This document shows positions 15,548 through 38,683 of a DNA stretch of 39,468 bases, piece after piece. The position numbers and the translations under genes were made by a program. The stretch is taken from NCBI GenBank assembly GCA_012517965.1, contig JAAYTZ010000011.1:1-39468 (forward strand). The letters are read 5' to 3'. A model generated the notes under the pieces. The model did not search any database, was not told the origin of the DNA, and was given only the letters and a program-made list of their open reading frames with translations. Position 1 is the first letter of the stretch. Each line of letters begins with the position of its first letter. Origin of the DNA: Propionibacterium sp. (GTDB lineage Bacteria > Actinomycetota > Actinomycetes > Propionibacteriales > Propionibacteriaceae).

Positions 15548-16174
15548 GTGGCCGAGGCCCCACCCGCGCCGCCGTTCGCGGCGGACGCCTTCGGCGCGGC
15601 CCTCCCCCTCGCCGAGCGCTACGCCGCGATCCTGGTGTCGCGCGGCGTCGAGTGGGGGCTGCTCGGACCGCGTGAAGCGGAGCGGGTGTGGGGGCGGCAC
15701 GTGCTCAACAGCCTCGCCGTGGCCGACGACGTGCCCGCCGGGGCGAGCGTGGTCGATGTCGGCAGCGGGGCGGGCCTGCCCGGCATCCCGTTGGCGCTGG
15801 CGCGGCCCGATCTGCGGGTCACGCTCCTCGAGCCGTTGGAGCGCCGGGCGGCCTTCCTCCAGTCAGCTGTGGCCGAGTTGGGGCTGGAGAACCGCGTGCG
15901 CGTCGTCCGCGGCCGGGCGGAGAACCACCTCGAGCACTACGACGCGGTGGTGTGCCGGGCCGTGGCCCCACTGAGCAGGCTACTCGGGTGGACGTCGCCG
16001 CTGTTCCTGCCGGGCGGCCGCCTGGTGGCGCTCAAGGGCGCGTCCGCCGCGGCCGACCTGAAGCGGGCCGCGGCCGACCTGCGCCGCCTGCAGGCGCGCG
16101 GCCGCGTCCGGGAGATTCGCCTTCCCCCGGACGCCGAGCCGACGTACGTCGTGGTGGTCACCCCTGCACGGTGA
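15548..16174 (+). CDS. rsmG: 16S rRNA (guanine-N7) methyltransferase RsmG
   Basis: A 208-residue SAM-dependent methyltransferase that modifies G527 of 16S rRNA; its loss commonly gives low-level streptomycin resistance. Visible motifs are W-G-R-H-V-L-N-S-L, the SAM-binding glycine loop VVDVGSGAGLPGIPLA, and the later C-R-A-V-A-P-L segment. The GTG starts one base after the jag stop. parA and parB normally follow rsmG in this cluster; here the next gene is a convergent, unrelated TspO-like gene 12 bp away. Confidence 0.95.
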   Translation: MAEAPPAPPFAADAFGAALPLAERYAAILVSRGVEWGLLGPREAERVWGRHVLNSLAVADDVPAGASVVDVGSGAGLPGIPLALARPDLRVTLLEPLERRAAFLQSAVAELGLENRVRVVRGRAENHLEHYDAVVCRAVAPLSRLLGWTSPLFLPGGRLVALKGASAAADLKRAAADLRRLQARGRVREIRLPPDAEPTYVVVVTPAR

Positions 16175-16186
16175 GCGTGACCGGCG

Positions 16187-16969
16187 TCAGGCGCGGGCCA
16201 GCGCGAGGCGGGGCCGGCGCGACGCGACCGCCGAGACCGCGACGATGAGAGCCGCCACCAGGGCCGCGACGCCGACCAGGGTCGACTCGGGCTCGGTGGT
16301 GAGCCGGGCGACCGCGATCCAAGTGAGCCCCCAGGCCAGCGCGGCCGCGACCGCGAGCCGCCCGCCCAGGGCCCGCGCGAGCAGGATGCCGACGCCCGCG
16401 GCGACGGCCAGGATCGCGACGGCCAGCGCCTGGTCGGCCACCGGGCCGAGCGTCCAACCGGAGGCCACCGCGGCCGCCGTGACGTTCGCGGCGGTGGCGA
16501 TCGACACCCAGCCGAGGTAGGCGCCGAAGGTGCCGTCCAGGATCACCCGGTCGGCAAGGTCGGCGGCGGGCAGGGCGGTGAGGCGGCGCACCAGGGTCAC
16601 CAGCGTCACCAGCAGGGCCACGATCACGCCCACGCTCAGCCAGATCAGCCCGTACTGGGTGACGAGCAACCAGCCGGCGTTGAGCAGCATCGAGACGCCG
16701 GCCAGCCAACCGGTGGCGCGGGCGCGCTCCGAGGTCTTGTTCGCCGGCAGCCACTGCCACACGGTGTAGGCGAACAGGCCCAGGTAGATCGCCGACCAGA
16801 TCGAGAAGGCCGGTGCGCCGGGGGCGAGCAGGGTGGCGTCGGCGGCCAGGCTGCCGCCCGAGGACTCCTCGACCCGGCGGCCGAGAACGCCGGTGCCGAG
16901 CAGGGTGCCGTAGATGCAGAGGGCCTCCGAGGCGGTGACCCAGAGTTGCCGTTGCCGATCGCGGTCCAT
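16187..16969 (-). CDS. TspO/MBR-like tryptophan-rich membrane protein
   Basis: A 260-residue integral membrane protein with about seven hydrophobic helices. The segment AFSIWSAIYLGLFAYTVWQWLP (residues about 54-75; key residues F-S-I-W-x-x-I-Y and the Trp pair) and the N-A-G-W-L-L turn match the larger actinobacterial branch of TspO/MBR proteins. TspO proteins bind porphyrins and other ligands and respond to light, oxygen or stress. ATG 16969 follows AAGGAG. It lies 45 bp downstream of the CarH/LitR-like regulator on the same strand, and an 11-bp-periodic repeat overlaps its likely promoter, so it is the probable regulatory target. Confidence 0.78.
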   Translation of the reverse strand: MDRDRQRQLWVTASEALCIYGTLLGTGVLGRRVEESSGGSLAADATLLAPGAPAFSIWSAIYLGLFAYTVWQWLPANKTSERARATGWLAGVSMLLNAGWLLVTQYGLIWLSVGVIVALLVTLVTLVRRLTALPAADLADRVILDGTFGAYLGWVSIATAANVTAAAVASGWTLGPVADQALAVAILAVAAGVGILLARALGGRLAVAAALAWGLTWIAVARLTTEPESTLVGVAALVAALIVAVSAVASRRPRLALARA

Positions 16970-17011
16970 CGGTCGCTCCTTCGTCGTGGGGAAGAGAACT
17001 TCTCGACGACT

Positions 17012-17052
17012 ACGTTACGCCCCGGCCCGCATTTTGTCCAATGTTTGTCCAA
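17012..17052 (-). promoter_or_regulatory. Promoter/operator of the TspO-like gene with 11-bp direct repeats
   Basis: On the minus strand two exact copies of TTGGACAAA stand 11 bp apart (17052-17042 and 17041-17031). The second copy's TTGGAC can serve as -35, with TAACGT (17017-17012) as -10 after an 18-bp spacer. The site overlaps the 3' end of the regulator gene. The word CAAACATTSGACAAA recurs upstream of the regulator gene itself. CarH is known to bind 11-bp direct repeats, so this is the likely operator. Confidence 0.6.
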
Positions 17053-17944
17053 GGTGGGTGTCGGGGGGGAGCCCCGAGCGGAGCTCCGTGGCGACCTCGC
17101 TCGCCGCCCGGGCCACCCCGGCCGGGAGCAGCCCGGCCCCGCGCAGGCGTCCCGCCAGCCCGCCGCCGACCCAGACGGCGACCGGGGGCGTCAGGGCCCG
17201 CAGCCGGTCCACCAACTCCTGGACGGGACGCACCCGGGCGCCCAGCGGGGCTCCGATCACGGCCGCTCGCGGACGGAGGGTCTCGGCCGCGGTCAGCCAG
17301 GCCGACACCGGCACGTTCGCCCCCAGGTAGACCACGCTGACGCCCGCCCGCCGCAGGCAGGCCGCGAAGGCCAGCAGGCCCAGTTCGTGGTTGGCGCCCT
17401 CGGCGAGCCCCACCAGCACCGGTGCCGTGCCCGGCTCGGGGGCCTCGTGGAAGATCCGGCCGAGCAGGCGGATCACCCCCGCGGTCACGAAGTGCTCGTG
17501 GGCCACGCTGATCTCCCCCGCCGCCCAGGCCTGCCCGAGCCGGGCAAGCTCCGGCAACAACCACGCGTCGACGACCTGCTCGAAGGGGGCTCGCTCCAAC
17601 ACCTCGGCCAGGAGGGCGTCGAGCCGCGCGGGGTCGAGGCTCAGGGCCGTCGCGACGAGGTCCAGGTCGGCGAGTGATCGAGCCTCGGTGGCGGAGGCGG
17701 CGGCCGTACCGAGCGGCGGCAGGCTCTTGGCGGCGACCGAGGCGGGCACCCCCTCCGCCACCAGGGCGGCCATCAGGCGGAGCCGCGCGACCTGGTCGTC
17801 GTCGTAGAGCCGGTAGCCGCCCGGTGAGCGCGTCGGAGTGACCACCTGGTAGCGGCGCTCCCACACGCGCAGGGTCGTCTCCAGGACGCCCGTCAGCGCG
17901 GCCACCTGTTTGACGGTGTAGCGTCCCTGATCGCCGGCTTGCAC
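17015..17944 (-). CDS. MerR-family cobalamin-binding regulator, CarH/LitR-like
   Basis: A 309-residue transcription regulator. The MerR winged helix is at 9-70 (YTVKQVAALTGVLETTLRVW, then PGGYRLY). A four-helix B12-capping domain follows, with the CarH signature Trp-x9-Glu-His (W140, E150, H151). The Rossmann B12-binding domain has His186 in NHELGLLA as candidate lower axial ligand; the usual Asp/Glu two residues before it is Ala. In CarH/LitR proteins adenosylcobalamin drives tetramerisation and repression in the dark, and light breaks the Co-C bond. The GTG start lies 6 nt after a TAGGCT -10 box, suggesting a leaderless transcript. It lies between an aldo/keto reductase and a TspO-like gene. 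Confidence 0.85.
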   Translation of the reverse strand: MQAGDQGRYTVKQVAALTGVLETTLRVWERRYQVVTPTRSPGGYRLYDDDQVARLRLMAALVAEGVPASVAAKSLPPLGTAAASATEARSLADLDLVATALSLDPARLDALLAEVLERAPFEQVVDAWLLPELARLGQAWAAGEISVAHEHFVTAGVIRLLGRIFHEAPEPGTAPVLVGLAEGANHELGLLAFAACLRRAGVSVVYLGANVPVSAWLTAAETLRPRAAVIGAPLGARVRPVQELVDRLRALTPPVAVWVGGGLAGRLRGAGLLPAGVARAASEVATELRSGLPPDTHLGQTLDKMRAGA

Positions 17945-17950
17945 GCGGTC

Positions 17951-17985
17951 AGCCTAGCAAACATTCGACAAAGTTTGGACGTTTT
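17951..17985. promoter_or_regulatory. Promoter and putative auto-operator of the MerR/CarH-like gene
   Basis: The minus-strand -10 box TAGGCT is at 17956-17951. Overlapping it, three plus-strand units with 11-bp spacing (17953, 17964 and 17975; the best one TTCGACAAAGT) resemble the TTGGACAAA units in front of the TspO-like gene. They share 14 identical bases of the 15-base word CAAACATTSGACAAA. Binding here would block transcription of the regulator. Confidence 0.55.
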
Positions 17986-18006
17986 TCGGTGCCGAATGAT
18001 TCCGGA

Positions 18007-18870
18007 TCAGTCGGCGAACACGGACGCGTACTCGGTCTCGGCCAGTCCGGCGAGCCGGTCCTCGGCGGCCGCCACGTCGATGCGCTGCGCCTCGGCGCGG
18101 ACGATCCGCTCCAGCAGCCGGGTCTCCCCGGCGGTGGCGATGCCCGTCACCTCGGGGTGACCGTCGAGCACCCACGACACGGCCGCGGTGATCGCGTCCT
18201 GCTCGTCGAACGGCTCGTACCAGGTCGCATAGCGTCGCTCCCCCTCGGGCCACGGCCGCCGGGCGATCGCCTTGATCGTCATCAGGCCGCGGTCGCCGGC
18301 CCGGACCTCGGCGGCGAGCGCGCGGAAGGCGTCCGCGAAGCCCTCGACGCGCCAGAGCCGCTCGTTCAGCGGCGTGAGCACCGTGTCGAAGTCGAAGCGG
18401 CGCAGCCCCTCGAGGTGGATCCGCGGGGCGTCATGGGTGTGGCCGGTGATCCCCAGGCCGGCCGTGAGGCCCTCCTCGCGCGCCCGGATCGCGGCCCGCA
18501 GGGCCCCGTCGGGCGCGGTGACCCGGTCGAGGATCTCCCAGGAACTGACGTTGTGCAGCTGCAGCAGGTCGAGGCGATCGGTGCGCAGGCGCTCCAGCGA
18601 CCGGTTGATCGACGCCCACGCGGCCTCGTAGTCGCGCTCCTCCACCTTGGTGGCGAGGAAGACCCGGTCCCGCCAGGACGGCAGCGTCGCGCCCAGGCGC
18701 TCCTCGGAGTCGCCGTAGGAGGCCGCCGTGTCGATGTGGTTGATACCGGACGCCAGAGCGAACTCGATCGACGCGTCCGCCACGTCCTGCGTCACCGCCC
18801 CCAGCGACGCCGCGCCGTAGATGAGAACCGAGGATGCGTGGCCGAGCCGACCCAGGCGCCTGTACTCCAT
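18007..18870 (-). CDS. Aldo/keto reductase
   Basis: A 287-residue NAD(P)H-dependent oxidoreductase of the AKR superfamily. The catalytic tetrad is complete: Asp47 and Tyr52 in HIDTAASYGDSEERLG, Lys75 in FLATKVEE and His106 in LLQLHNVSS. A conserved G-I-T-G-H and the late G-I-A-T-A-G-E motif follow. The substrate is unknown. ATG 18870 is 6 nt from a TACGAT -10 box and lacks a Shine-Dalgarno, so the transcript is probably leaderless. It runs divergently from the first radical SAM gene and lies 62 bp upstream of the CarH-like regulator, which has its own promoter. Confidence 0.85.
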   Translation of the reverse strand: MEYRRLGRLGHASSVLIYGAASLGAVTQDVADASIEFALASGINHIDTAASYGDSEERLGATLPSWRDRVFLATKVEERDYEAAWASINRSLERLRTDRLDLLQLHNVSSWEILDRVTAPDGALRAAIRAREEGLTAGLGITGHTHDAPRIHLEGLRRFDFDTVLTPLNERLWRVEGFADAFRALAAEVRAGDRGLMTIKAIARRPWPEGERRYATWYEPFDEQDAITAAVSWVLDGHPEVTGIATAGETRLLERIVRAEAQRIDVAAAEDRLAGLAETEYASVFAD

Positions 18871-18916
18871 GACCGGATCGTAGGGCCACCGCGTCCAGCC
18901 GCCGTACAGTCGGGTC
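18871..18916. promoter_or_regulatory. Divergent leaderless promoters (aldo/keto reductase and radical SAM)
   Basis: In this 46-bp gap the minus-strand box TACGAT (18882-18877) is 6 nt from ATG 18870, and the plus-strand box TACAGT (18905-18910) is 6 nt from ATG 18917. Both starts lack a Shine-Dalgarno. The -35 regions of the two promoters must overlap, which may link their regulation. Confidence 0.5.
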
Positions 18917-20224
18917 ATGAGGATCGCCCTCGTGCGACCGAGCATGTCGGGCGTCCGCGCCGGGGACGCCATGCAGCCGCTGGTGTTCGCGCTCCTGGCG
19001 GCCCTCACCCCCTCCGGGGTCGCCCTCACCTTCCACGACGAACTCGTCGAGCCGCTGCCCGAGGTGCCGGACGCCGACGCGGTCGCCCTCACCGTAGAGA
19101 CGTTCGCAGCCCGCCGCGCCTACCAGTTGGCCGACCGGTGGCGCGCGCGCGGCGTCCCGGTGATCATGGGTGGCTTCCACCCCAGCATGTGCCCCGACGA
19201 GGCCGCCGAACACGCGGACGCCGTCGTCGTCGGCGAGGCCGAGGACACCTGGCCGCGCCTGCTCGCCGACCTGGCCGCCGGGCGGCTCGCGTCCCGCTAC
19301 GACTCGACCTGCGCCGACGGGCTCGGCGGCGTCCGGTTCGACACGTCGGTCTTCGCCGGCAAGCGCTACGCGCCGCTGGGGCTGGTGCAGTTCGGGCGTG
19401 GTTGCCGGTTCGCGTGCGACTTCTGCTCGATCCACGCGTTCTTCGGCGCGCGCATCCGGACGCGGCCCGTCGCCGAGGTCGTCGCCGAGATCGCGCGTCG
19501 CCCCGAGCGGATGCTGTTCTTCGTCGACGACAACCTGTACGCCGACCCGGCCGCGGCGCGGGAGTTGCTCGAGGAGCTCGTGCCGCTGCGGCGGCGGTTC
19601 GCCTGCCAGCTCTCGATGGACGTCGCGGGAGACCCCGCGCTGCTCCGCCTGCTGCACCGGGCCGGCTGTCGGGTGGTTGTGGTGGGGTTCGAGTCGACGT
19701 CGCCGGCCACGCTGCGGGCCATCGGCAAGGGGGCCAACCTGCACGCGGACTACGAGCGGGTGATCCGGGCCTTCCACGCCGCGCGCATCATGATCTACGG
19801 AACCTTCGTCGTCGGGTACGACGCCGACTCCGCGCGCACCCCGGCGGACGCCGCCGACTTCGCCATCCGGCACCGGTTCGCGGTCGCCAATTTCAACCCG
19901 CTGATGCCCATGCCGGGCACCCGGCTGTACGACCGGCTCAAGGGGCAGGGCCGGCTGATCCACGACCGGTGGTGGATCGACCCCGCCTACCGCTACGGCG
20001 ACGCGATGCTGGTGCCGACGGGCATGACGCCCGCCGAGCTCACCGACGGCTGCCGGGCCGCGCGGTTCGCGTTCAACACCCCCGCCTGCATCGCGCGCCG
20101 GCTGGCGCACCCGGCGGCCAACGCCCACTCCCCGGCGAACGCCGCGCTGTTCCTCGCCGCCAACCTCGTGTCGCGCCGGGAGATCCGCGCGAAGCAGGGC
20201 CGGCGACTGGGGGCGTCCGGATGA
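18917..20224 (+). CDS. B12-binding-domain radical SAM protein (1)
   Basis: A 435-residue radical SAM enzyme. Residues 1-150 form a Rossmann-like B12-binding domain with GGFHPSMCPDEA and H-A-D-A-V-V-V-G-E-A-E, the pattern of BchE-type proteins; the classical D-x-H-x2-G cobalamin loop is not evident. The cluster motif is GRGCRFACDFC (Cys163, 167, 170). F-F-V-D-D-N and V-V-G-F-E-S follow in the TIM-barrel. The C-terminal end (SPANAALFLAANLVSRREI) is hydrophobic. Family members methylate or rearrange unactivated carbons in lipids, pigments and antibiotics; the substrate here is unknown. Its TGA overlaps the ATG of the next radical SAM gene by 4 bp. Confidence 0.88.
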   Translation: MRIALVRPSMSGVRAGDAMQPLVFALLAALTPSGVALTFHDELVEPLPEVPDADAVALTVETFAARRAYQLADRWRARGVPVIMGGFHPSMCPDEAAEHADAVVVGEAEDTWPRLLADLAAGRLASRYDSTCADGLGGVRFDTSVFAGKRYAPLGLVQFGRGCRFACDFCSIHAFFGARIRTRPVAEVVAEIARRPERMLFFVDDNLYADPAAARELLEELVPLRRRFACQLSMDVAGDPALLRLLHRAGCRVVVVGFESTSPATLRAIGKGANLHADYERVIRAFHAARIMIYGTFVVGYDADSARTPADAADFAIRHRFAVANFNPLMPMPGTRLYDRLKGQGRLIHDRWWIDPAYRYGDAMLVPTGMTPAELTDGCRAARFAFNTPACIARRLAHPAANAHSPANAALFLAANLVSRREIRAKQGRRLGASG

Positions 20225-21570
20225 GGGTCACCCTGATCAAGCCGAACCTGGGCCGCCTGATCGGACGCCGCGGTCCCGTGCGGTACGTCGACTCCGGGCG
20301 GATGGAGCCGCTGCAACTCGGGGTGCTGGCCGGGCTCACCCCGCCGGGGGTGGACGTCCGCCTCGTCGACGACCGGATGGAGGACGTCCCGTTCGACGCC
20401 CCGACCGACCTCGCCGCGCTCACCGTCGAAACCTTCACCGCGCGGCGCGCCTACGAGATCGCCGCGGAGTACCGCAGCCGCGGCGTCCCGGTCGTGCTGG
20501 GCGGGATGCACCCGACGCTGGATCCCGACGAGGCCGCCGGCCACGCCGACGCCCTCGTCACCGGAGACGCCGAGTCGGTCTGGGGGGAGGTGCTGGCGGA
20601 CGCCGCGGGCGGCCGGCTGCGGCCCCGCTACGACGGCGGGACGGCGGGAGTGCCGCAGGACGGCGTCCGGCCCCGACGGGACCTGTTCGCCGGCAAGGGG
20701 TACTTGCCGATCACGCTGACGCAGTTCTCGCGGGGCTGCCCGTACCGGTGCCACTACTGCGCGACGAGTTGCTTTTTCCACGCCACCCACCGACACCGGC
20801 CGGTCGACCAGGTCGTCGACGAGCTGCGCGCGCAGCGGCGTCGCTCGGTGTTCTTCGTCGACGACAACATCACCGCCGACCGCGAGGCCGCCAAGGAGCT
20901 GTTCGCCGCGCTGATCCCGCTGCGGCTGCGCTGGGTGTCGCAGGCGTCGATCGACATGCTCGCCGACCGCGAGCTCATGGACCTGATGGTGCGCTCGGGC
21001 TGTCAGGGGCACGTGATCGGCTTCGAGTCGCTGTCGGACGCCAGCCTGCGCGGCATGCGCAAAGGCCAGAACCGGGCGGCGGCCGCGGACGGGTACGCGG
21101 GCGCCGTCGAACGGCTGCGCGGCTACGGGCTGCAGACGTGGGCGGCGTTCACCGTGGGCCACGACGGAGACACCCTGGCGTCGATCCGGGCGACCGCCGA
21201 CTTCGCCCTCGCGAGCAAGTTCGCATTCGCGGCCTTCAACCTCCTGATGCCCTACCCCGGGACGCCGCTGTACGCCGAACTCGCCGCCGAGGGCCGCCTG
21301 CTCTACGACGGGCGTTGGTGGTTGCACCCCGACTACCGGTTCAACCACGCGGCCTTCGTGCCGGCCCGGATGAGCCCCGGCGAGCTGACCGCGGCGTCCT
21401 TCGAGTGCCGGCGGCGGTTCAACGCGCCGTCCTCGATCGTCTGGCGGCTCCTGGAGCCGCGGACCAACCTGCGCTCGCCGGGGGCGATGCTGCAGTACCT
21501 CGCCTACAACCCGCTCTTCCGCCGCGAGGTCTACAAGAAGCAGGACCTGGCGCTGGGGTACCGCGCGTAG
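20221..21570 (+). CDS. B12-binding-domain radical SAM protein (2)
   Basis: A 449-residue paralogue of the preceding protein with the same plan: an N-terminal B12-type domain (GGMHPTLDPDEAAGHADALV), cluster motif RGCPYRCHYC (Cys173, 177, 180), FFVDDN, VIGFES, then P-Y-P-G-T-P-L-Y and W-W-L-H-P-D-Y-R-F in the C-terminal part. The ATG overlaps the previous stop (ATGA), so the two are translationally coupled and may act in sequence or as partners. The N-terminal segment L-I-K-P-N-L-G resembles radical SAM protein 4 (31042) more than protein 1. Reaction and substrate are unknown. Confidence 0.88.
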   Translation: MRVTLIKPNLGRLIGRRGPVRYVDSGRMEPLQLGVLAGLTPPGVDVRLVDDRMEDVPFDAPTDLAALTVETFTARRAYEIAAEYRSRGVPVVLGGMHPTLDPDEAAGHADALVTGDAESVWGEVLADAAGGRLRPRYDGGTAGVPQDGVRPRRDLFAGKGYLPITLTQFSRGCPYRCHYCATSCFFHATHRHRPVDQVVDELRAQRRRSVFFVDDNITADREAAKELFAALIPLRLRWVSQASIDMLADRELMDLMVRSGCQGHVIGFESLSDASLRGMRKGQNRAAAADGYAGAVERLRGYGLQTWAAFTVGHDGDTLASIRATADFALASKFAFAAFNLLMPYPGTPLYAELAAEGRLLYDGRWWLHPDYRFNHAAFVPARMSPGELTAASFECRRRFNAPSSIVWRLLEPRTNLRSPGAMLQYLAYNPLFRREVYKKQDLALGYRA

Positions 21571-21792
21571 GCCCCGGGGCTGGGGCGCGGTGTTCATTCT
21601 CCGGGGGCGATCGGCTCGGTGGAACGATCGAATGCCGTCGCAGAGGCCGACAGACCCCGGGAAGTGAACACACCCGGCCGATCAGTCCGTTGCTGAGCGA
21701 TCGGCGTCGATTGGTCGCGGCCGGGGGCCCGTTCGTGGGAGATTCTGTCCGGGAACGTGCGGGACCGGCCCGCACCGCCGGAGGGGTCACAG
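21571..21792. promoter_or_regulatory. Upstream region of the carboxylase with long inverted repeat
   Basis: GTGTTCATTCTCCGGGG (21590-21606) and CCCCGGGAAGTGAACAC (21655-21671) form an imperfect inverted repeat, 14 of 17 positions pairing. Between and beyond the arms are repeated GATC-centred words (GCGATCGGC, ACGATCGA, GCCGATCAG). It may act as a terminator for the radical SAM pair or as an operator for the carboxylase. I found no convincing -35/-10 pair. Confidence 0.45.
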
Positions 21793-27303
<5,511 letters not shown>

Positions 27304-27306
27304 ACC

Positions 27307-27318
27307 TACCGTTGCTCC
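27307..27318 (+). promoter_or_regulatory. Leaderless promoter of the GNAT-like/GH3 pair
   Basis: TACCGT at 27307-27312 is followed by 6 nt and the ATG at 27319, with no Shine-Dalgarno. The carboxylase gene ends at 27303, so the box lies immediately after its stop. Confidence 0.4.
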
Positions 27319-28026
27319 ATGGCCCTGCACTGGGACGTCGTGGCCGCCGCGGACCTGACGACGGCCGACATCGACGCGATGTTCGCGCTGATGGACCTGG
27401 TCTACGACGGGATGCGCCGCGAGGCGTTCGAGGCCGACCTGGCCGGGAAGGATGAGGCGATCGTCCTGCGCACGGACGCCGGCCGGCTGGTGGGGTTCAG
27501 CACCCAGCGCGCGCTGAGCGTCCGCGTCGGGGAGGCCAGGGCGGCCGGGGTGTTCTCGGGCGACACGGTCATTCACCCCGAGCACTGGGGCAGCCCGGCG
27601 CTGCTGCAGGCCTTCGCCCGGCGCTACATCGTCGAGCGCGAGGAGCCGTTCTGGTGGTTCCTGGTCAGCAAGGGGCACCGCACCTACCGGTTCCTGAGCA
27701 CCTTCTTCACGACCTTCTGGCCGGACCGCCGCTCCCCCACCCCGCCCGCGGCCCGGGCCGTCATGGACGCCTACGCGACCGCCCTCTTTCCCGACGACTA
27801 CGACGCCGAGCGCGGCGTCCTGGCCTATCGGACGCCCAAGGACCGGCTGCGCCCCGGGATCGCCGGGGTCGGCGCACGCGACCTGACCAACCCTGACGTC
27901 GCCTTCTTCGTCGCGCGCAATCCCGGCCACGCGCTCGGCCACGACCTGGTCTGCCTGTGCGACCTGGCACCGGCCAACCTCAAGCCGCGGATGCGCCCGA
28001 TCCTGCTGGGCCAGCCGTGCGCCTGA
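27319..28026 (+). CDS. GNAT-like acyltransferase-type protein
   Basis: A 235-residue protein. The first about 70 residues read like a GNAT fold (MFALMDLVYDGMRREAFEAD, then DEAIVLRTDAGRLVGFSTQR), followed by a conserved-looking block FWWFLVSKGHRTYRFL and a C-terminal N-P-G-H-A-L-G-H-D-L-V-C-L-C. No classical Q/R-x2-G-x-G/A loop is obvious, so acyl-CoA binding is inferred from the fold resemblance only. Its stop overlaps the GH3 start by 10 bp, so the two proteins are co-translated and probably act in one pathway, with this one perhaps loading or accepting the acyl group. Function is otherwise unknown. Confidence 0.6.
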   Translation: MALHWDVVAAADLTTADIDAMFALMDLVYDGMRREAFEADLAGKDEAIVLRTDAGRLVGFSTQRALSVRVGEARAAGVFSGDTVIHPEHWGSPALLQAFARRYIVEREEPFWWFLVSKGHRTYRFLSTFFTTFWPDRRSPTPPAARAVMDAYATALFPDDYDAERGVLAYRTPKDRLRPGIAGVGARDLTNPDVAFFVARNPGHALGHDLVCLCDLAPANLKPRMRPILLGQPCA

Positions 28027-29543
28027 CCACCGCGGCCGCGAACGCGGCCATCGCGACGGCCTGCGCGCCGGCCCACGCGCGGCTGCTCGCGCTGGCGGGT
28101 GGGGACGGCCTGCGCCGGGCGCAGGCCAGGCTGCTCGGGCGGATGCTCGCGCGCAACGCCGGCAGCGAGTTCGGCCGGCGGCACGCCTTCGGACGCCTCC
28201 GCGGGGTGAGCGACTACGCCCGGGCCGTCCCGCTGTCGACGTGGGACGACTACGCGGACGCCGTCGCGCGGATCGCGGCGGGGACGCCCGGCGTGCTGAC
28301 CGCCGAGCCGGTGCGCCTGCTGGAACCCTCGTCGGGCTCGACCGCCGCCACCAAGCTGGTGCCGTACCCGGCCGGCCTCCGCGCCGACTTCGGCCGCGGC
28401 CTCCGACCGTGGCTGCACGACCTGGACCGGTCGTTCCCGGGGGTCCGGACGGGGCGCGCCTACTGGTCGGTCACCCCGGCGGTGTCGCGGCCGGCGGCCG
28501 CCGGGGGCGTCCGGGTCGGGTTCGACGAGGACGCCGACTACTTCGGCCCGTTGACGAAGCACCTGATGGGGGCCGTGTTCGCCGTGGGTGGGGACGTCGC
28601 CCGGGTGGCGACGATGGACGAGTTCCGGGCCCGGACGCTGACCGCGCTGCTGGCCGCGGACGACCTGGCGCTGGTCTCGGTGTGGAACCCGACGTTCTTC
28701 ACGCTGCTGCTCGACTGGGCGGCCGACCACGCGACGGGGCTGACCGCCGGGCTGCCGGCCCGGCGTCGGTCGGTCCTCGCCGGAGCCGTGCGCGCCGGCG
28801 ACTGGGCGGCCGTGTGGCCCCGGTTGACGGTCGTGTCGTGCTGGGCCGACGCGCAGGCCGCGCCGGCGGCGTCCGAGTTGGCGGGGAGGCTGCCCCAGGC
28901 GCTGCTGCAGCCCAAGGGGCTGCTGGCCACCGAGTGCATCGTCTCGGTGCCGATCGAGCGCGCCGGCGGGGCGGTGCTCGCCGCCCGCTCGCACTTCTTC
29001 GAGTTCGTGGGCGAGGGTGGCGGCGACCCGGTCCTCGCCCACGAGCTCGAGGCCGGCCGTCGCTACGCCGTCGTGGTGACCACGTCGGGCGGGCTGTACC
29101 GCTACCGGCTCGGCGACCTGGTCGAGGTCACCGGCCACTTCGGCGCGCTGCCGGTGCTGCGGTTCGTGGGCCGGGCCGACCGGGTCAGCGATCTCGTGGG
29201 CGAGAAGCTGGCGGAGGCGTTCGTGGCATCGGCGCTGGCCGCGGCGGGGGCGTCCGGGTTCGCGGTGCTGACCCCCGACGGACGCCGCGGGTACGTCCTG
29301 GTCACCGACGCTCCCTCCCCCGGGCTCGCCGAGCGCCTGGACGCCGCCCTGCGGCAGAACTTCCACTACGACTACGCCCGACGCCTCGGCCAACTGGACG
29401 CCGTGCGGGTGGCCGACGCCGGTCCCGACGCCGCCGAGCGCTACCTGGACGCCTGCGTGCGGCGGGGCCAGCGCCTGGGCGACGTGAAGGTGCCGGCGCT
29501 GGCGCTGGGCCGGGAGGCGGGGTCGCTGGTGGGCGGCGGGTAG
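28017..29543 (+). CDS. GH3-family acyl-adenylating amidosynthetase
   Basis: A 508-residue protein of the GH3 auxin-responsive-promoter family, part of the ANL adenylate-forming superfamily. The phosphate-binding loop is SSGSTAATK (105-113). The signature YRYRLGDLVEVTG and the GRADRVSDLVGEKL segment mark the end of the large domain. A C-terminal lid with NFHYDYARRLGQLD, R-G-Q-R-L-G-D-V-K and P follows. Plant GH3 enzymes adenylate a carboxylate and transfer it to an amino acid; bacterial members are mostly uncharacterised. The GTG at 28017 lies within the end of the GNAT-like gene. Together with nearby carboxylase and radical SAM genes it suggests biosynthesis of an acyl amide or ester. Confidence 0.87.
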   Translation: MRLTTAAANAAIATACAPAHARLLALAGGDGLRRAQARLLGRMLARNAGSEFGRRHAFGRLRGVSDYARAVPLSTWDDYADAVARIAAGTPGVLTAEPVRLLEPSSGSTAATKLVPYPAGLRADFGRGLRPWLHDLDRSFPGVRTGRAYWSVTPAVSRPAAAGGVRVGFDEDADYFGPLTKHLMGAVFAVGGDVARVATMDEFRARTLTALLAADDLALVSVWNPTFFTLLLDWAADHATGLTAGLPARRRSVLAGAVRAGDWAAVWPRLTVVSCWADAQAAPAASELAGRLPQALLQPKGLLATECIVSVPIERAGGAVLAARSHFFEFVGEGGGDPVLAHELEAGRRYAVVVTTSGGLYRYRLGDLVEVTGHFGALPVLRFVGRADRVSDLVGEKLAEAFVASALAAAGASGFAVLTPDGRRGYVLVTDAPSPGLAERLDAALRQNFHYDYARRLGQLDAVRVADAGPDAAERYLDACVRRGQRLGDVKVPALALGREAGSLVGGG

Positions 29544-29672
29544 ACCCCCGACGGGACGCCTCGGGTTGACGTCGCCTCCTCGGGCTGCTGCCCGAGCGGC
29601 CGTCGCCGGGGCGAGGCGTCCGGTGGCTGGCCCGAGGCGTAGGCTCGACCCAACCCGATGGAGGGAGCCGCC
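29544..29672 (+). promoter_or_regulatory. Intergenic promoter and nested inverted repeats before radical SAM 3
   Basis: ACGCCTCGGG (29556-29565) and CCCGAGGCGT (29631-29640) are perfect 10-bp inverted arms enclosing a second hairpin, CTCGGG-6-CCCGAG (29579-29596). A TAGGCT -10 box (29640-29645) begins at the end of the outer arm, and GGAGGGAG (29660-29667) precedes GTG 29673. The structure may terminate the GH3 transcript and/or regulate the next operon. Confidence 0.5.
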
Positions 29673-31031
29673 GTGAAGATCGCGTTCCTCGCCCCCGCCG
29701 GCGCCATGCACCGGCACCACGGCAGCTTCGGAATCGGCATCCACTACGCGCCGCTGACGCTCACCACCCTGGCCGCGCTCGTGCCGCCCGAGTTGAACGC
29801 CGAGGTGGTCGTCCACGACGAGACCGCGCACGCGATCCCCCTCGACCTCGACGCCGACCTGATCTGCATCACCGCCATCACCGGCACCTCGTCGCGCGCC
29901 TACGCGTTCGCCGACTACTTCCGCGCGCTGGGCCGCACCGTCGTGCTGGGCGGCGTCCACCCCACGATGCTGCCCGATGAGGCCGCCGCCCACGCGGACG
30001 CCGTCGTCACCGGCTTCGCGGAGCAGACGTTCCCGCAACTGCTGCGCGACTACGCCGCCGGCGCCCTCCAGCCGCGCTACCGCCAGAACGCCGACTACAC
30101 CATCGCGGGCAAGCCCTGGCCGCGCCGCGACCTGCTCGACAAGCGCCGCTACATCACCATGAACACCGTCGAGGTGGTGCGCGGCTGCGCGCTCGGCTGC
30201 ACGTTCTGCGCTTACCCGACGGCGTTCGGGTCGACGGTGCACCCCCGGCCGGTCGCCGAGGCCATCGCCGAGATCGAGGCCCTCCCGGGGCGCTACGTGG
30301 TGATCCCCGACATCAACCTGCTCACCGGCCACGCCTGGACCACCGAGTTCTTCACGGCGCTCGCCACGCTGAACAAGAGGTGGTTCGGCCTGGTCACCTC
30401 GGCGATCGGGTCGGACGACGCGCTGATCCGGCTGTTCGAGCGGTCGGGCTGCGAGGGGCTGCTGATCGGGTTCGAGTCGATCAACGCCGAATCCCAGAAG
30501 TTCTTCCACAAGCGGGTCAACAAGGTCGGCGGCTACCCGACGTTGATGCGCAAGCTCCACGACGCCGGCATCGTGGTGCAAGGGTGCTTCGCGTTCGGCG
30601 GCGACGACGAGGACGCCACGGTCTTCGAGCGCACCGTCGAGATGGTCGCGCAGACCCAGATCGACCTGCCGCGGTACTCGATCCTGACCCCGTTCCCCAA
30701 CACCCCCTACTACCGGCAACTGGAGGCCGAGGGCCGCATCTTCGAGCGGGACTGGGCGATGTACGACGTCGAGCACGTGGTGTTCAAGCCCAAGAGGATG
30801 ACCGAGGAGCAGCTCTACGACGGCATCACCTGGGCCTGGGACCAGACCTACACCCTGCCCGCGATCGCGAAGCGGCTCGCCCCCTACAACCGGGCGCTGC
30901 TGCCGTCCCTGGTGACCAACCTGTTCGGCTACCGCGGCTACGCCAAGAAGTTCGCCCAGTTCCCCCGGTCGCGGATGGTCGACAACTCCGACATCCCGCG
31001 CGTCGACCGCCCGGGCGTTCGGACGCCGTGA
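29673..31031 (+). CDS. B12-binding-domain radical SAM protein (3)
   Basis: A 452-residue enzyme with an N-terminal B12-type domain (VLGGVHPTMLPDEAAAHADAVV), cluster motif RGCALGCTFC (Cys172, 176, 179), LIGFES and a C-terminal domain with P-F-P-N-T-P-Y-Y. It differs from the other three in its GIGIHYAPLTLTTLAALVP start and in a longer, basic C-terminus (FGYRGYAKKFAQFPRSRMVD) like the DUF4070-type tails of BchE relatives. The GTG is chosen because a GGAGGGAG Shine-Dalgarno lies directly upstream; an ATG 15 bp earlier would overlap it. It heads a three-gene run with 31042 and 32381. Confidence 0.88.
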   Translation: MKIAFLAPAGAMHRHHGSFGIGIHYAPLTLTTLAALVPPELNAEVVVHDETAHAIPLDLDADLICITAITGTSSRAYAFADYFRALGRTVVLGGVHPTMLPDEAAAHADAVVTGFAEQTFPQLLRDYAAGALQPRYRQNADYTIAGKPWPRRDLLDKRRYITMNTVEVVRGCALGCTFCAYPTAFGSTVHPRPVAEAIAEIEALPGRYVVIPDINLLTGHAWTTEFFTALATLNKRWFGLVTSAIGSDDALIRLFERSGCEGLLIGFESINAESQKFFHKRVNKVGGYPTLMRKLHDAGIVVQGCFAFGGDDEDATVFERTVEMVAQTQIDLPRYSILTPFPNTPYYRQLEAEGRIFERDWAMYDVEHVVFKPKRMTEEQLYDGITWAWDQTYTLPAIAKRLAPYNRALLPSLVTNLFGYRGYAKKFAQFPRSRMVDNSDIPRVDRPGVRTP

Positions 31032-31041
31032 GGGCCCGGGC

Positions 31042-32373
31042 GTGAAGGTCACCTTCGTCGTCCCGGCGATCGGGAAGAAGCCGGGCCAGCGCTACATCGG
31101 CACCTGGAAGATGGAGCCGCTGACGGTCGCCGCCCTCCAGGCGCTGACGCCGCCCGACGTCGAGACCGAGTTGTTCGACGACCGCCTCGAGTTGATCGAC
31201 TACGACACCGCCACCGACCTGGTCGCGCTCCCGCTGGAGACCTACACGGCCCGACGCGCGTACGCCATCGCGGCTCGGTTCCGCGCCCGCGGTGTCCGGG
31301 TGGTGATGGGGGGCTACCACGCGACCCTCGCGCCCGACGAGACCGCCGAGCACGCGGACGCCGTCGTGGTCGGCAACGCCGAGTCCGTCTGGGCGACGCT
31401 GCTGGCCGACGCGGCGTCCGGACGCCTGAGGCGCCGCTACGAGGGCGGCGTGTGCGCCGCCCCTCCCCCACCCGACAAGCGCATCTTCGCCGGCAAGCGG
31501 TATCTGCCGGTGGGGCTGGTCGAGACCGGACGCGGCTGTGGGCACGTGTGCGAGTTCTGCGCGATCGCCGGCTTCTACCGCCACCGCTACCACCCCCGGC
31601 CGGTCGACGACATCGCCGCCGACCTGGAGCGGTCGCCGCACCGGTACCAGTTCCTCGTCGACGACAACCTGATGGCCGACCGGGAGCACCTCACGCGGCT
31701 GGCCGACCGCATCGCACCCCTGGGCAAGAAGTGGGCCGGGCAGGGCACCCTCGACCTCGCCCGCGACCCGGCCCTGTTGGCGCGGCTCAAGCGGTCGGGC
31801 TGCGAGCTGATCCTCATCGGGTTCGAGTCGCTCGAGGACGCTTCACTACGGCAGATGCGCAAGCCGTGGAACGCCGTCCTCGGTGAGCGGTCCGCCCTGG
31901 TGCGCCGCATCCACGACGCCGGCATCGGGATCTACGCGACGTTCGTCTTCGGCTACGACGGCGACACCGCGGCCACGTTCGAGCGGACGCTGGAGTTCGC
32001 CGAGGAGGCCCGCTTCTTCACCGCGGCGTTCAACCATCTGCTGCCCTTCCCCGGGACGCCGCTGTACGACCGGCTCGCCGCCGAAGGCCGGCTGCTGCAC
32101 GACAAGTGGTGGCTGGCGGAGGGCTACTCCTACGGGCAGGTGGCGTTCCGGCCGGCCACCATGAGCGCCGAGGAGTTGGCGTCCCGCTGCCGCGACGCCC
32201 GGAAGCGGTTCGCCGCGCCCCGCAACCTCGGACGCCGCGGGCTGGCGTCCCTGCGGCGTAGCGCGCCCCGGGAGTGGCCGCTGTTCTGGGCCATGAACAC
32301 CCGGCTCGGCGAGGAGGTCGACGAGAAGATGAACGTCCCCCTGGCCGCCAACCTCGACGCGTGGCCCAAGTGA
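31042..32373 (+). CDS. B12-binding-domain radical SAM protein (4)
   Basis: A 443-residue enzyme with a B12-type N-terminal domain (GGYHATLAPDETAEHADAVVV), cluster motif GRGCGHVCEFC (Cys166, 170, 173), LVDDN, LIGFESL and P-F-P-G-T-P-L-Y. Overall order and motifs are closest to protein 2 (20221), including T-W-K-M-E-P-L near the start and D-K-W-W-L near the end, suggesting an ancestral duplication. The GTG is 10 bp after the previous stop with AGGG upstream. The C-terminus (about 390-443) is basic and differs from the other copies. Reaction unknown. Confidence 0.88.
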   Translation: MKVTFVVPAIGKKPGQRYIGTWKMEPLTVAALQALTPPDVETELFDDRLELIDYDTATDLVALPLETYTARRAYAIAARFRARGVRVVMGGYHATLAPDETAEHADAVVVGNAESVWATLLADAASGRLRRRYEGGVCAAPPPPDKRIFAGKRYLPVGLVETGRGCGHVCEFCAIAGFYRHRYHPRPVDDIAADLERSPHRYQFLVDDNLMADREHLTRLADRIAPLGKKWAGQGTLDLARDPALLARLKRSGCELILIGFESLEDASLRQMRKPWNAVLGERSALVRRIHDAGIGIYATFVFGYDGDTAATFERTLEFAEEARFFTAAFNHLLPFPGTPLYDRLAAEGRLLHDKWWLAEGYSYGQVAFRPATMSAEELASRCRDARKRFAAPRNLGRRGLASLRRSAPREWPLFWAMNTRLGEEVDEKMNVPLAANLDAWPK

Positions 32374-32380
32374 GGCCGCG

Positions 32381-33424
32381 ATGAGCGAGCCGGACGCCGG
32401 GAGCGGCGCGGGCCGGTGGGGCGTCCGGGTCGCCGGGGACGGCGACGCCGCCGACCTGCTGCGCCTCTACGAGTGCGACGCGGCCGCGGGCGACCTGGCG
32501 GTGCTGACCACGCGGCGGCCCGATCCGCTGGCCTCGCTACGCACCGAGGGCGACCGGGTGGTGTTCCCGGTCGTCACCGACAACGAGTCGGGCCGCGTCA
32601 TCGGTGGCGGCGCCTGCGTGATCCGGCGGGCGTCGGTCGGCGGGGTGGACCGCACCGTCTGCTACCTCACCGGGCTCAAGCTGCTGCCCGAGTACCGGCG
32701 CCAGGTGCCGCTGATGGCCCGGATCTACGGCTGGGCCCGCGAGTTGACCGCCGACGTCGACCTGTACTACACGACGATCATGGCCGACAACGCGGCCGCC
32801 CAACGGCTCCTGACCGGACGCCGTCGGCGCGGCATGCCCGAGTACCGGCCGGCCGGCGGCTACACCACCTGGTGTTTCCGGACGCCGCCGGTCCGGCTCC
32901 CCCGGTGGGGCCTCCGGCTGGAGTTGGGGACGGCGTCCGACCTGGTCAGCCCCGGGTTCGACCTGGAGCCGGTGCGGCCGCTCGCCCCGGAGTCGTGGGT
33001 GCTGCGTGACCGGTCGGGTGCGGTGGTGGCCAGCGCGGGCGTCTGGGACCAGCGGGCCCACCGCCAGTACATCGTCCTGCGCTACGGCGGTGCGTACGAG
33101 CACCTGCACCGACTGCCGACCGCGCTGATCGGCTACCCCCGGCTGCCCCGTCCGGGGGCGGTGGCCGCGCAGGCGTCCGTGACCCAGCTGTGGGTCCGGG
33201 ACTGGGACCCGGCCCTGGCCCGGCTCTTCCTCGGGGCCCTGTCCCGGGTGCACCGGCGGTTCGACTACCTCGTCTGGGGCGCCCACGCGAGCCACCCGCT
33301 CGCGGGGCCGCTGGCCGGGCTTCGCGGCGTCCGGCTCGACAGCCTGCTGTACACCGTGCATTTCGACGACGCCTGCCTGCCGCTCTCGGGCGGGCCCGTC
33401 GGCCTCGACGTGGCCCTGCTCTGA
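32381..33424 (+). CDS. GNAT-family N-acyltransferase-like protein
   Basis: A 347-residue protein. The N-terminal half looks like a GNAT domain: a variable start, R-V-I-G-G-G-A-C-V strand, then YLTGLKLLPEYRRQVPLMARIYGW, where L-P-E-Y-R-R corresponds to the acetyl-CoA loop region (the usual Q/R-x2-G-x-A is degenerate), and I-M-A-D-N-A-A-A-Q-R-L-L. The C-terminal half has a second, GNAT-like rhythm with SVTQLWVRDWDP. The ATG is 7 bp after radical SAM protein 4, so it is the last gene of that run. It may transfer the acyl group made or modified by the neighbours; substrate unknown. Confidence 0.65.
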   Translation: MSEPDAGSGAGRWGVRVAGDGDAADLLRLYECDAAAGDLAVLTTRRPDPLASLRTEGDRVVFPVVTDNESGRVIGGGACVIRRASVGGVDRTVCYLTGLKLLPEYRRQVPLMARIYGWARELTADVDLYYTTIMADNAAAQRLLTGRRRRGMPEYRPAGGYTTWCFRTPPVRLPRWGLRLELGTASDLVSPGFDLEPVRPLAPESWVLRDRSGAVVASAGVWDQRAHRQYIVLRYGGAYEHLHRLPTALIGYPRLPRPGAVAAQASVTQLWVRDWDPALARLFLGALSRVHRRFDYLVWGAHASHPLAGPLAGLRGVRLDSLLYTVHFDDACLPLSGGPVGLDVALL

Positions 33425-33473: not shown

Positions 33474-35378
33474 ATGGCGATCCTCACCCTGCCGGTCGAC
33501 CAGCGGATCATCGACATCGATTCGCAGCGGTTCGCCTCCGTCGAGAAGGCGCTCGTCGAGCTCGTCACCAACAGCGACGACAGCTACAGCCGCCTCGAGC
33601 AGGCGCTCCCGTCGCCCGGCACGATCACGATCCGCTACGAGCGGCACGACCGCGGGGCCGTCATCTCCGTGACCGACGCCGCGGAGGGCATGACCCTCGA
33701 CCGGCTCCGCACCGTGCTCACCTACGGCGGCGCCCACAGCCAGTTGGCGTCCGGAGGAACGACCGGGCGCGGCTTCTTCGGCCGCGGCCTCAAGCAGGCC
33801 GTCTTCGGGCTGGGGCACGGCTGGGTGGAGTCGATCCGCGACGGCCGGCTGGCCCGCGTCGACCTGTTCCGCGACGAGTCGGGAAGCTACGTCTACGACG
33901 ACCAGGACGGCGACCGCGCCGCGGCGTCCGGGGACTACGCCGCCCTGGGGCTCGAACCCGGCGGGCACGGCACCCGGGTGACGATCGTCGTCGACAACCC
34001 CCAGGTGACCCTGCCGCTGTACCGGTCGCTGGTCACGGCGCTGAGCGGCAACTTCTACCTGCGCGACATCCTCGCGCGCCGGCGGCTCACGCTGATCAAC
34101 GGGAACCTGCCGCGGCGGCGCGTGGTCCCGACGCCGCTCCGGTACGAGGAGCCGCCGTCGGAGCTGCTGCTGGGGCCCGGGCTGGTGGGGTCGTTCGACT
34201 TCGACGGCCGGCGGCACGACTTCGAACTCACCCTGCGCAAGGCCTCCGCCGACCTCATCCTGCGCGGCGACGAGCGGGACAGCGGCCTGCTGGTCGTGTC
34301 GGGCACGGCCGTCCTCGACTGCCAGTTCTTCCGGTTCGAGGGGCAACTCGGCACCGAGTACCTGTTCGGCACGGTGAGCTGTCCGGACCTGGTCGCGGCG
34401 CTGGCGTCCGGACGCCCGGTCATCAGCGACGAGCGGGAGGGACTCAACCAGAAGGACCCCTTCGTCGCCGCCTTCGCGGCCGCCGTCAGCGAGGTCATCG
34501 AGCCCGTGGTCGAGAGCGAGCGGCTGCGGCTCAGCCACGTCGACCACGCGTCGACCTCGCGGCGGACGGAGGCGCTCCTCCAGCAGGTGCTGGGCCGGAT
34601 GAACCGGGTCGCGGTGGAGGATCTCGGCATCGTCCTGCCGCCCGGGCCCGGCACCGGCTCGTACGGCCCCTTCCCCACCGGCCGGCCAGCGCTGCTGCGG
34701 TTCACGACCCCCTTCTACTTCCGCCCGGTCGGGCGGGACTTCCGCGTCACGCTCGTCGTCGATCGGCCGCGGCTGCTCGACGAGACGCTCCTGCACGTCG
34801 AGCCGGACCTGCCGGCGTCCGTCACGATCGTCCCGGACGAGCCGCGGGTGCGCGTCGGCGACCTGCCCGCCGACGGACGCCTCTCCTGGACGCTCCGCGG
34901 CTCCGAGGCCGGCGCCAAGGGGCGGCTGCGGGTCACGGCCGGCCCGGCGGCGGCGTCCTGCGAGATCGTCATCGCCGCGGACGCCGCCCGGCACGCCGGC
35001 CATCACGAGCGGTCCGGTCCGCCGCGGCCGCACGTCCCGTGGGACCAGGACAACGCGACCGACCTGTTCGCCGGCTTCGAGCTGCGCAACCTCGACAACG
35101 ACATCGACCGGGCGGTGTACAGCCCGGCCGAGCGGCTCATCATCGTCAACACCGAGGCGCCGACCGTGCGGCTCTACGTCGACGGGCAGGGGCACTTCCG
35201 CGACAGCGCCCGGCTGCTGCTCGCCGAGTTGTTCCTCGACGTGATCGCGGGCGAACTGGCCCACCGCTACGTCGATCGCACCCTGCAGAAGGGGGACGCC
35301 GAGGCCTACGAGCAGGCCAAACACACGTTCATCCGGCGCTACGGGCTGGAGATCCACCGCATTCTGATGGGCCAGTGA
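33474..35378 (+). CDS. GHKL (Hsp90/MORC-like) ATPase of unknown function
   Basis: A 634-residue protein with an N-terminal Bergerat-fold ATPase: Glu29 and Asn33 in ALVELVTNSDDSY (Mg-ATP site), Asp68 in VTDAAEGM (the D-x-G-x-G box is altered, the central Gly replaced), and the glycine lid GRGFFGRGLKQAVFGLG (98-114). This order is that of Hsp90/MutL/MORC rather than histidine kinases. A long middle part (about 200-500) of beta-rich sequence and a C-terminal helical segment (about 560-634, SARLLLAELFLDVIAGELAH) follow; I recognise no nuclease or protease motif. Such solitary ATPases occur in phage-defence and conflict systems, but no partner gene is adjacent. It is convergent with the frameshifted flavin reductase. 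Confidence 0.75.
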   Translation: MAILTLPVDQRIIDIDSQRFASVEKALVELVTNSDDSYSRLEQALPSPGTITIRYERHDRGAVISVTDAAEGMTLDRLRTVLTYGGAHSQLASGGTTGRGFFGRGLKQAVFGLGHGWVESIRDGRLARVDLFRDESGSYVYDDQDGDRAAASGDYAALGLEPGGHGTRVTIVVDNPQVTLPLYRSLVTALSGNFYLRDILARRRLTLINGNLPRRRVVPTPLRYEEPPSELLLGPGLVGSFDFDGRRHDFELTLRKASADLILRGDERDSGLLVVSGTAVLDCQFFRFEGQLGTEYLFGTVSCPDLVAALASGRPVISDEREGLNQKDPFVAAFAAAVSEVIEPVVESERLRLSHVDHASTSRRTEALLQQVLGRMNRVAVEDLGIVLPPGPGTGSYGPFPTGRPALLRFTTPFYFRPVGRDFRVTLVVDRPRLLDETLLHVEPDLPASVTIVPDEPRVRVGDLPADGRLSWTLRGSEAGAKGRLRVTAGPAAASCEIVIAADAARHAGHHERSGPPRPHVPWDQDNATDLFAGFELRNLDNDIDRAVYSPAERLIIVNTEAPTVRLYVDGQGHFRDSARLLLAELFLDVIAGELAHRYVDRTLQKGDAEAYEQAKHTFIRRYGLEIHRILMGQ

Positions 35379-36002: not shown

Positions 36003-36298
36003 GGGACCAGCAGACCAGATCGGCATGGCCACGAACAACGACGACGAGGGAGGACCCCGCCGTGGCTGTCTGGGCCGCTCCGAACTACAGGAATGTAGTT
36101 CTCCCCAGCGGTGTCCACAGCCTGTGGGTAACCGTGTTCACAGCCGCGGGCGCTCCTCCCGCCGGCTCGACGGCGGCGTGTCGTGGGGGGGTTGGCCGAC
36201 CGCGGTCGCGGTGGGACACTGGTGCGCTTCCCTGCTGCCCGTTGGGGGGACGCCCGCGGCGTCCGCACGGTGGCCGCACCTTCGAGAACGGAGCCGAG
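36003..36298 (+). promoter_or_regulatory. Upstream region of the uvrA-like gene with operator-like repeats
   Basis: This stretch is open in the uvrA frame but has no family similarity, so I treat it as a leader. It contains a perfect 8-bp inverted repeat (36082-36101) and, 13 bp later, CCACAG-C-CTGTGG (36115-36127) inside DnaA-box-like sequence TGTCCACAG and GTGGGTAA. Nothing else coding is evident. Confidence 0.5.
36082..36101. promoter_or_regulatory. Perfect inverted repeat GAACTACA-N4-TGTAGTTC
   Basis: GAACTACA (36082-36089), ggaa, TGTAGTTC (36094-36101). The ACTACA/TGTAGT half-sites resemble operators of BlaI/MecI/CopY-type repressors, though those usually have a shorter centre. It lies about 200 bp upstream of the uvrA-like start. 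Confidence 0.6.

Positions 36299-38683
<2,385 letters not shown>

Follow-up and report, generated by a model that had tools for sequence, protein, structure and literature searches.

A conserved seven-gene set of GH3-type, GNAT-like and B12-binding radical SAM proteins on a Propionibacterium contig, with a predicted lipid-like acyl amide product

The window, a 39,468-nucleotide stretch of Propionibacterium sp. DNA, is an entire contig (JAAYTZ010000011.1) of a 3.27-Mb draft genome. An open reading frame check placed eight consecutive genes, every one on the plus strand, at the positions listed in Table 1. Four of them encode B12-binding radical S-adenosylmethionine (SAM) enzymes (rS1 to rS4), and the others encode a GH3-type synthetase, a fused acyl-CoA carboxylase, and the weakly GNAT-like proteins gn1 and gn2. 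The first-pass annotation of this DNA had named the same eight genes, and both the reading frames and the Pfam matches confirmed them. Its label of "GNAT-like" proved weak for both proteins, as gn2 falls just below the Pfam cutoff and gn1 has no Pfam match. Seven of the genes (rS1, rS2, gn1, GH3, rS3, rS4, and gn2) are treated here as a cassette. rS1 and rS2 overlap by 4 bp, and only 15 bp separate the carboxylase from gn1, 10 bp rS3 from rS4, and 7 bp rS4 from gn2; the gaps are wider between rS2 and the carboxylase (219 bp) and between GH3 and rS3 (114 bp). The GH3 gene probably starts at a GTG codon at position 28017, which would give it a 10-bp overlap with gn1. Across the genes called between 17015 and 35378, Pfam matched no ketosynthase or nonribosomal peptide synthetase (NRPS) domain.

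Table 1. Cassette genes and adjoining features of the window.
Feature	Coordinates	Strand	Basis or remark
rS1, B12-binding radical SAM, type C	18917..20224	+	Pfam Radical_SAM 1.4e-13, B12-binding 6.2e-10; CxxxCxxC
rS2, B12-binding radical SAM, type D	20221..21570	+	Pfam Radical_SAM, B12-binding below Pfam cutoff; CxxxCxxC
Fused acyl-CoA carboxylase, 1837 residues	about 21790..27303	+	BC, BCCP, ACC central, and CT domains; judged outside the cassette
gn1, weakly GNAT-like, cassette marker	27319..28026	+	no Pfam match; homologues elsewhere
GH3-type acyl-acid amido synthetase	27957..29543, start probably 28017	+	PF03321, PF23571, PF23572; motifs
rS3, B12-binding radical SAM, type A/E clade	29658..31031	+	Pfam; CxxxCxxC; trees
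rS4, B12-binding radical SAM, type B	31042..32373	+	Pfam, B12-binding below Pfam cutoff; CxxxCxxC
gn2, weakly GNAT-like	32381..33424	+	PF00583 E 0.001; homologues elsewhere
Aldo/keto reductase, divergent from rS1	18007..18870 (start by our own reading)	-	PF00248
MerR and B12-binding regulator adjoining the cassette	17015..17944	-	Pfam

The seven cassette genes recur together in other bacteria. On a plasmid of Citrobacter portucalensis (NZ_CP134684), counterparts of all seven lie side by side in the order gn1-GH3-A-B-gn2-C-D, where A to D are radical SAM genes, followed by genes for a PAP2 protein and a further protein; a fifth radical SAM gene, E, and a fatty-acid desaturase gene lie on the opposite strand. 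The window and Citrobacter proteins are 51.6% (rS1 and C), 54.2% (rS2 and D), 43.2% (rS3 and A), and 45.2% (rS4 and B) identical, and identities are 33.5% for gn1, 37.3% for GH3, and 26% over 224 residues for gn2. Within the family to which the window belongs, genome G013 carries rS1-rS2-gn1-GH3-rS3 up to a contig end at 60 to 78% identity (60.5% for rS1, 73% for rS2, and 77.6% for a partial rS3), and genome G612 carries a partial rS4 (61% identical to that of the window), gn2, a radical SAM gene, gn1, and GH3. Comparing gene neighborhoods across genomes, as the first-pass annotation had proposed, thus showed the whole set in Citrobacter and subsets of it in G013 and G612. Because the set recurs in other organisms, it is not a chance assembly. 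On sequence grounds, the locus is a real, conserved, nonstandard set of seven putative biosynthetic genes.

The carboxylase gene lies between rS2 and gn1 in the window and had been counted as part of the pathway, which was not borne out. A carboxylase of this kind occurs in 31 of 56 relatives, with 26 full-length copies and 5 long partial ones, the latter at 60% identity or more; identities over all 31 are mostly 60 to 77%, and 9 of 12 congeners are among the carriers. GH3 had no match in any of these 31 genomes. Among the 56 relatives, only G013, which is outside the 31, has a real GH3 match (the match in G046 covers 81 residues at E 6e-4). In G013, rS2 is followed directly by gn1 with no carboxylase between them, and the best carboxylase match elsewhere in this 90%-complete draft is 40% identical over residues 4 to 453. 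The stretches read at five other loci with gn1 and GH3 (G013, Citrobacter, Burkholderia, Acinetobacter, and G612) contained no carboxylase match. These data make it improbable that the carboxylase is a working member of a single operon, supplying a carboxylated extender or acyl precursor for an amide lipid, although all eight genes share one strand and the 15-bp spacing to gn1 is such that cotranscription could follow. Its synteny is mixed: of eight carboxylase loci taken from relatives, three have a flanking gene in common with the window and five have none, so the present place of the gene is not plainly ancestral, which counts in favor of membership. A homologue of the UvrA-like gene at 36062-38683 comes after the carboxylase in G004 and lies one called open reading frame further along in G002; a homologue of the gene at 16187-16969 is found near the carboxylase in G004 and G011. 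Because its distribution is independent, we set the carboxylase aside as a pathway enzyme. Judged by these comparisons, it looks like a separate gene common to relatives, with the two halves of the cassette lying round it. The first-pass annotation had itself raised two doubts, that the neighbors might not be conserved together in relatives and that the carboxylase might be an ordinary gene unrelated to those beside it. The second holds for the carboxylase, which is distributed independently of the cassette, and the first does not hold for the other seven genes, which are conserved together.

Radical_SAM and B12-binding domains were identified in all four radical SAM proteins, and all four contain a CxxxCxxC motif. 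The DxHxxG motif, which is the mark of the histidine loop, is absent from all four. According to PMC13331322, many class 1 members lack a histidine ligand to the cobalamin that they bind. The domain order and motifs of the four window proteins, as read from their sequences, fit class 1 cobalamin radical SAM enzymes. Their model scores peak at 88 bits (rS2 against PhpK, cutoff 600), and all four are far below the cutoffs of 360 to 650 for the HpnJ, BchE, PhpK, HpnR, and TIGR04072 models. The hopanoid enzymes HpnJ and HpnR were rejected as identities, since the scores are far below cutoff.

In a 21-row tree that included seven outside homologues, the cassette enzymes fell into two clades (support of 100/100 each), apart from the outside homologues. 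rS2 grouped with Citrobacter D (100/99), rS1 with C (100/99), and rS4 with B (92/90, compared with 82/89 in a 14-row tree), and rS3 shared a clade with Citrobacter A and E, without a firm order inside it. Support for the deeper forks is weak, and some outside homologues may be closer to the rS3 clade than the second cassette clade is. From these groupings, the radical SAM types seem older than the split between the Citrobacter and window cassettes, which argues for one job per enzyme. Outside the cassette, a homologue at E <= 1e-70 was found in 41 of the other 395 genomes of the phylum sample, with one match in 38 and two in 3 when at most four candidates per genome were scored. The radical SAM proteins at ten outside loci (L069 to L078) are 33 to 42% identical to the window enzymes, and gn1, GH3, and gn2 had no match at these ten loci. 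Two of them have housekeeping-named neighbors, gltX with riboflavin genes at one and EF-Tu at the other.

The GH3 protein has N-terminal, central, and C-terminal domains that all exceed the gathering score (2.6e-25 for PF03321, 2.9e-18 for PF23571, and 2.6e-5 for PF23572). When a profile of its family was searched against solved structures, ten sequences matched (E 5e-30 to 6e-24); these are taken to be plant-type GH3 enzymes, and their names refer to hormone, benzoate, or acyl acids. Nucleotide motifs I (SSGSTAATK) and III (GLYRYRLGD) are clear, and by our own reading motif II is a divergent KGLLATE. Motif III is identical to that of AtGH3.11, and motif I resembles that of plant GH3 enzymes and OlsH, as these are given in the cited part of PMC12493201. 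The sole NCBIfam GH3 family that matches the window protein is OlsH (NF052613), at 49.1 bits, which does not reach the cutoff of 620. As also described in PMC12493201, OlsH uses ATP to join fatty acids to ornithine, yielding an N-acyl amino acid, a second acyltransferase finishes the lipid, and OlsH homologues found elsewhere may take other amino acids. Identity as the ornithine-lipid synthetase OlsH itself was rejected, since the score is far below cutoff and an OlsI-type partner is missing: no alpha/beta hydrolase was matched by Pfam in the genes called between 17015 and 35378. An alpha/beta hydrolase, of the same superfamily as OlsI, is encoded at 1057-1812 (+), 17 kb from the cassette and without a shown link to it.

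The window gn1 protein has no NCBIfam match and no match to PDB sequences up to E 1, and its family touches a GNAT model in 2 of 10 members (best E 0.024). Homologues of gn1 occur in G013, G521, G612, Citrobacter, Burkholderia, and Acinetobacter, with distant ones in Azospirillum. The gn2 family matches PF00583 in 3 of 5 members (best E 0.00044) and one PDB acetyltransferase at E 0.041, and window gn2 is 33% identical over 358 amino acids to its G612 counterpart. A chain of pairwise matches supports the homology of gn2 across lineages: 139 bits between the window and G612, 48 bits between the window and Citrobacter, 57 bits between Citrobacter and Acinetobacter, and 56 bits between Citrobacter and Burkholderia, with a weak direct match of 30 bits between the window and Acinetobacter. 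Bits are quoted instead of E-values for this comparison, as its database was tiny.

The gn1-GH3-gn2 genes also occur as a core beside other partners. In Burkholderia arboris (L007), gn1, gn2, a fatty-acid desaturase gene, GH3, and a Rieske/VanA oxygenase gene lie together; nearby genes encode a further two desaturases, an FAD hydroxylase, and a PF10118 protein. The Acinetobacter loci (L011 and L012) contain HlyD- and MFS-type exporter genes, gn1, GH3, a TolC-type gene, gn2, and SurE. No radical SAM match was found in the core stretches read from Burkholderia and Acinetobacter. This pattern speaks for the radical SAM genes and gn1-GH3-gn2 belonging to two unrelated pathways that are neighbors by chance, and so do the weak forks of the tree, which do not establish the two radical SAM clades of the cassette as closest relatives of one another. 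We consider such a coincidence very improbable: the genes are interleaved in different orders at four loci (window, G013, G612, and Citrobacter), the cassette radical SAM types form their own clades against the seven outside homologues, and among 72,556 plasmid records only the Citrobacter plasmid has an rS2 homologue at E <= 1e-60, together with gn1 and GH3. Two Azospirillum plasmids (L013 and L014) encode distant relatives of gn1 (25 to 27% identity), and the stretches read from them matched neither GH3 nor gn2; in L013, gn1 follows genes for an NAD_binding_4 reductase and two ABC-exporter-like proteins.

The set is rare in the sequences searched, which for gn1 were genomes of the window's phylum, plasmids, and viral contigs. 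Among the same plasmid records, 6 have GH3 (E <= 1e-5), 12 have gn1 (E <= 0.01), and 4 have both (Burkholderia, Citrobacter, and two Acinetobacter records). With the window counted, gn1 occurs in 4 of 198 genomes of the family; it occurs in 3 of 391 order genomes and in 1 of 396 genomes of the phylum sample, which is the window itself. GH3 at E <= 1e-15 was found in 3 of 396 genomes of a phylum sample (the window, G084, and G098). Since the set is rare, patchy, and also present on a plasmid of a distant bacterium, the distribution suggests that the cassette spread horizontally between distant bacteria. Repeated loss within the family may be the alternative. Carriage by phages or viruses was considered and rejected, as three viral-contig scans gave no GH3 or gn1 relative and a fourth gave one weak radical SAM fragment. 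A phage collection yielded two GH3 matches, and the one opened, named as an Acinetobacter phage, has bacterial-looking annotated neighbors. At the DNA level, blastn gave no match between E. coli and the Citrobacter stretch gn1-GH3-radical SAM A. A GH3 pattern scan of genome contigs, which reaches close relatives only, returned one relative, an Acidobacteria contig with a C-terminal piece of GH3 at its end and no matched partner. No description of this gene combination was among the matches listed in the open-access literature, subscription papers being outside that search.

We propose, with a probability of about one-half, that the product of the seven-gene cassette is a lipid-like acyl amide and that the cassette has apparently passed between distant bacteria. 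In the proposed chemistry, whose order of steps is equally conjectural, each of the four B12 radical SAM paralogues would have a site of its own among the unactivated C-H positions along an acyl chain. C-methylation is the most likely reaction, and ring formation or other C-C remodeling is possible. Like OlsH and the plant GH3 enzymes, the GH3 enzyme would adenylate the free acid of the chain with ATP and then hand the acyl group on to an amine, which is probably an amino acid. Taken to be GNAT-like acyltransferases, gn1 and gn2 could produce or prime the amine that GH3 uses, or could attach another acyl group drawn from acyl-CoA or acyl carrier protein. Our main ground for assigning the radical SAM reactions to an aliphatic chain is that the tailoring genes swapped at other loci include fatty-acid desaturases. 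The first-pass view of the locus therefore survives in part: a conserved, nonstandard set that lacks ketosynthase and NRPS domains stands, as does an acyl amide or lipid as the best reading of the product, given the GH3 motifs and the desaturase or export genes beside the core elsewhere, and the carboxylase drops out.

The product could instead be a nonlipid, for instance a signal or antibiotic that is an amidated aromatic or small molecule, with the radical SAM enzymes methylating a nonlipid part, in the way that plant GH3 enzymes work on hormones. The acids for which the matched solved structures are named would suit such a product, as would the Rieske/VanA and aromatic-hydroxylase-like genes near the Burkholderia locus and the export genes at the Acinetobacter locus. 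We nevertheless regard it as unlikely, since fatty-acid desaturases lie beside the core in two lineages, the Citrobacter locus encodes a PAP2 protein, and the one matching NCBIfam GH3 family, OlsH, acts on fatty acids in the cited part of PMC12493201.

A broader form of the acyl-amide proposal is tentative, and we hold it at somewhat less than even odds. The gn1-GH3-gn2 triad would be the core of undescribed, horizontally spreading acyl-amide pathways that swap tailoring modules, these being B12 radical SAM sets, desaturases with a Rieske oxygenase, or a bare core with export genes, and the amide of the radical SAM branch would be methylated or cyclized at several unactivated chain carbons. 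We know of no GH3 product with chain methylation or cyclization at several unactivated carbons. In the locus, known kinds of enzyme are combined in a new way, and gn1 serves as a marker family.

Several observations weigh against the acyl-amide cassette. Its substrate, product, and activity are all predictions. The G013 and G612 loci stop at contig ends, so that the sets seen there may be incomplete, and a 3.4-kb contig of a third family member, G521, carries gn1 (62% identity) with no match to GH3 or to any other window gene. The two markers also occur apart: 2 Streptomyces plasmid records have a partial GH3 without gn1, 8 Azospirillum plasmid records have gn1 without GH3, and G084 and G098 have GH3 at E <= 1e-15 with no gn1 match in a sample of the same size. 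Members are few (gn1 in 3 of 197 relatives in the family). The cassette has a GC content at third codon positions of 0.95 to 0.98 and a tetranucleotide profile that do not differ clearly from those of its flanks; because this composition carries no clear foreign signal, recent transfer into the window genome is not shown. The GNAT assignment of gn1 and gn2 relies on weak similarity, and the structure model of gn2 is uninformative (pLDDT, a model confidence score, of 32.7). Since HpnJ, BchE, PhpK, and other models are touched far below their cutoffs, the choice of methylation over the other B12 radical reactions, of which there are several, is a guess.

The left part of the window is an origin region, with genes that match both ends of the chromosome record of the congener G001. 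rsmG in this region has a Pfam match, and we take other genes there to be dnaA, yidC, and jag. The locus sits where G001 has a PhzF-like gene and genes that are presumably parA and parB after rsmG, and across 15548-18900, after rsmG, the gene order differs from that of G001, which has the PhzF-like gene there. On the minus strand, the MerR and B12-binding regulator, which we assume to resemble CarH/LitR, adjoins the four B12-binding enzymes; it had no match in the other cassette and core loci L005, L006, L007, L011, and L036. Neither did the aldo/keto reductase, for which positions 18007-18786 were used in the searches, and a homologue of the reductase at E <= 1e-30 is present in 4 of the 12 congeners. 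Directly after gn2, 33474-35378 (+) encodes a 634-residue protein with an HSP90/gyrase-type ATPase domain, which had no match at E <= 1e-10 in any of the 12 congeners and no PADLOC match. The gene at 36062-38683 (+) encodes a UvrA-like ABC ATPase, a name that is in part our presumption, and matches the PADLOC mad3 model at 231 bits. Near the contig end, a 55-base direct repeat (89% identical) occupies 39115-39169 and 39276-39330. No Rfam family at gathering score and no tRNA was found in the window.

If the acyl-amide proposal is correct, gn1 would be a genetic handle for acyl amides that mining for polyketide synthase and NRPS modules misses. It would also link bacterial GH3 enzymes to radical chain chemistry and suggest a role for one set of uncharacterized B12 radical SAM paralogues. 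The presence of the set on an enterobacterial plasmid and in a few family genomes suggests a transferable trait. Removing the carboxylase from the pathway spares effort on the wrong gene.

The carboxylase at 21790-27303 is an ordinary member of the fused single-chain acyl-CoA carboxylases of relatives, whereas its distribution puts it outside the cassette. Plant GH3 enzymes, such as JAR1, GH3.12, and GH3.8, conjugate hormones and share with the window protein the three Pfam domains and recognizable nucleotide motifs, of which motif II is divergent in the window. In contrast to these enzymes, which to our knowledge do not lie in such cassettes, the window gene sits among acyltransferase-like and radical SAM partners. 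In the class 1 cobalamin radical SAM enzymes HpnJ, BchE, PhpK, and HpnR and in the TIGR04072 lipid family, the B12-binding domain precedes the CxxxCxxC core, as it does in the window proteins, whereas the window has four paralogues in one cassette. The planctomycete OlsH/OlsI pathway, as presented in the cited part of PMC12493201, resembles the pathway proposed for the cassette in having a bacterial GH3-like enzyme, ATP, and acyl transfer. Compared with that pathway, the window has no alpha/beta hydrolase match between 17015 and 35378, and it carries gn1, gn2, and the four B12 radical SAM genes in addition.

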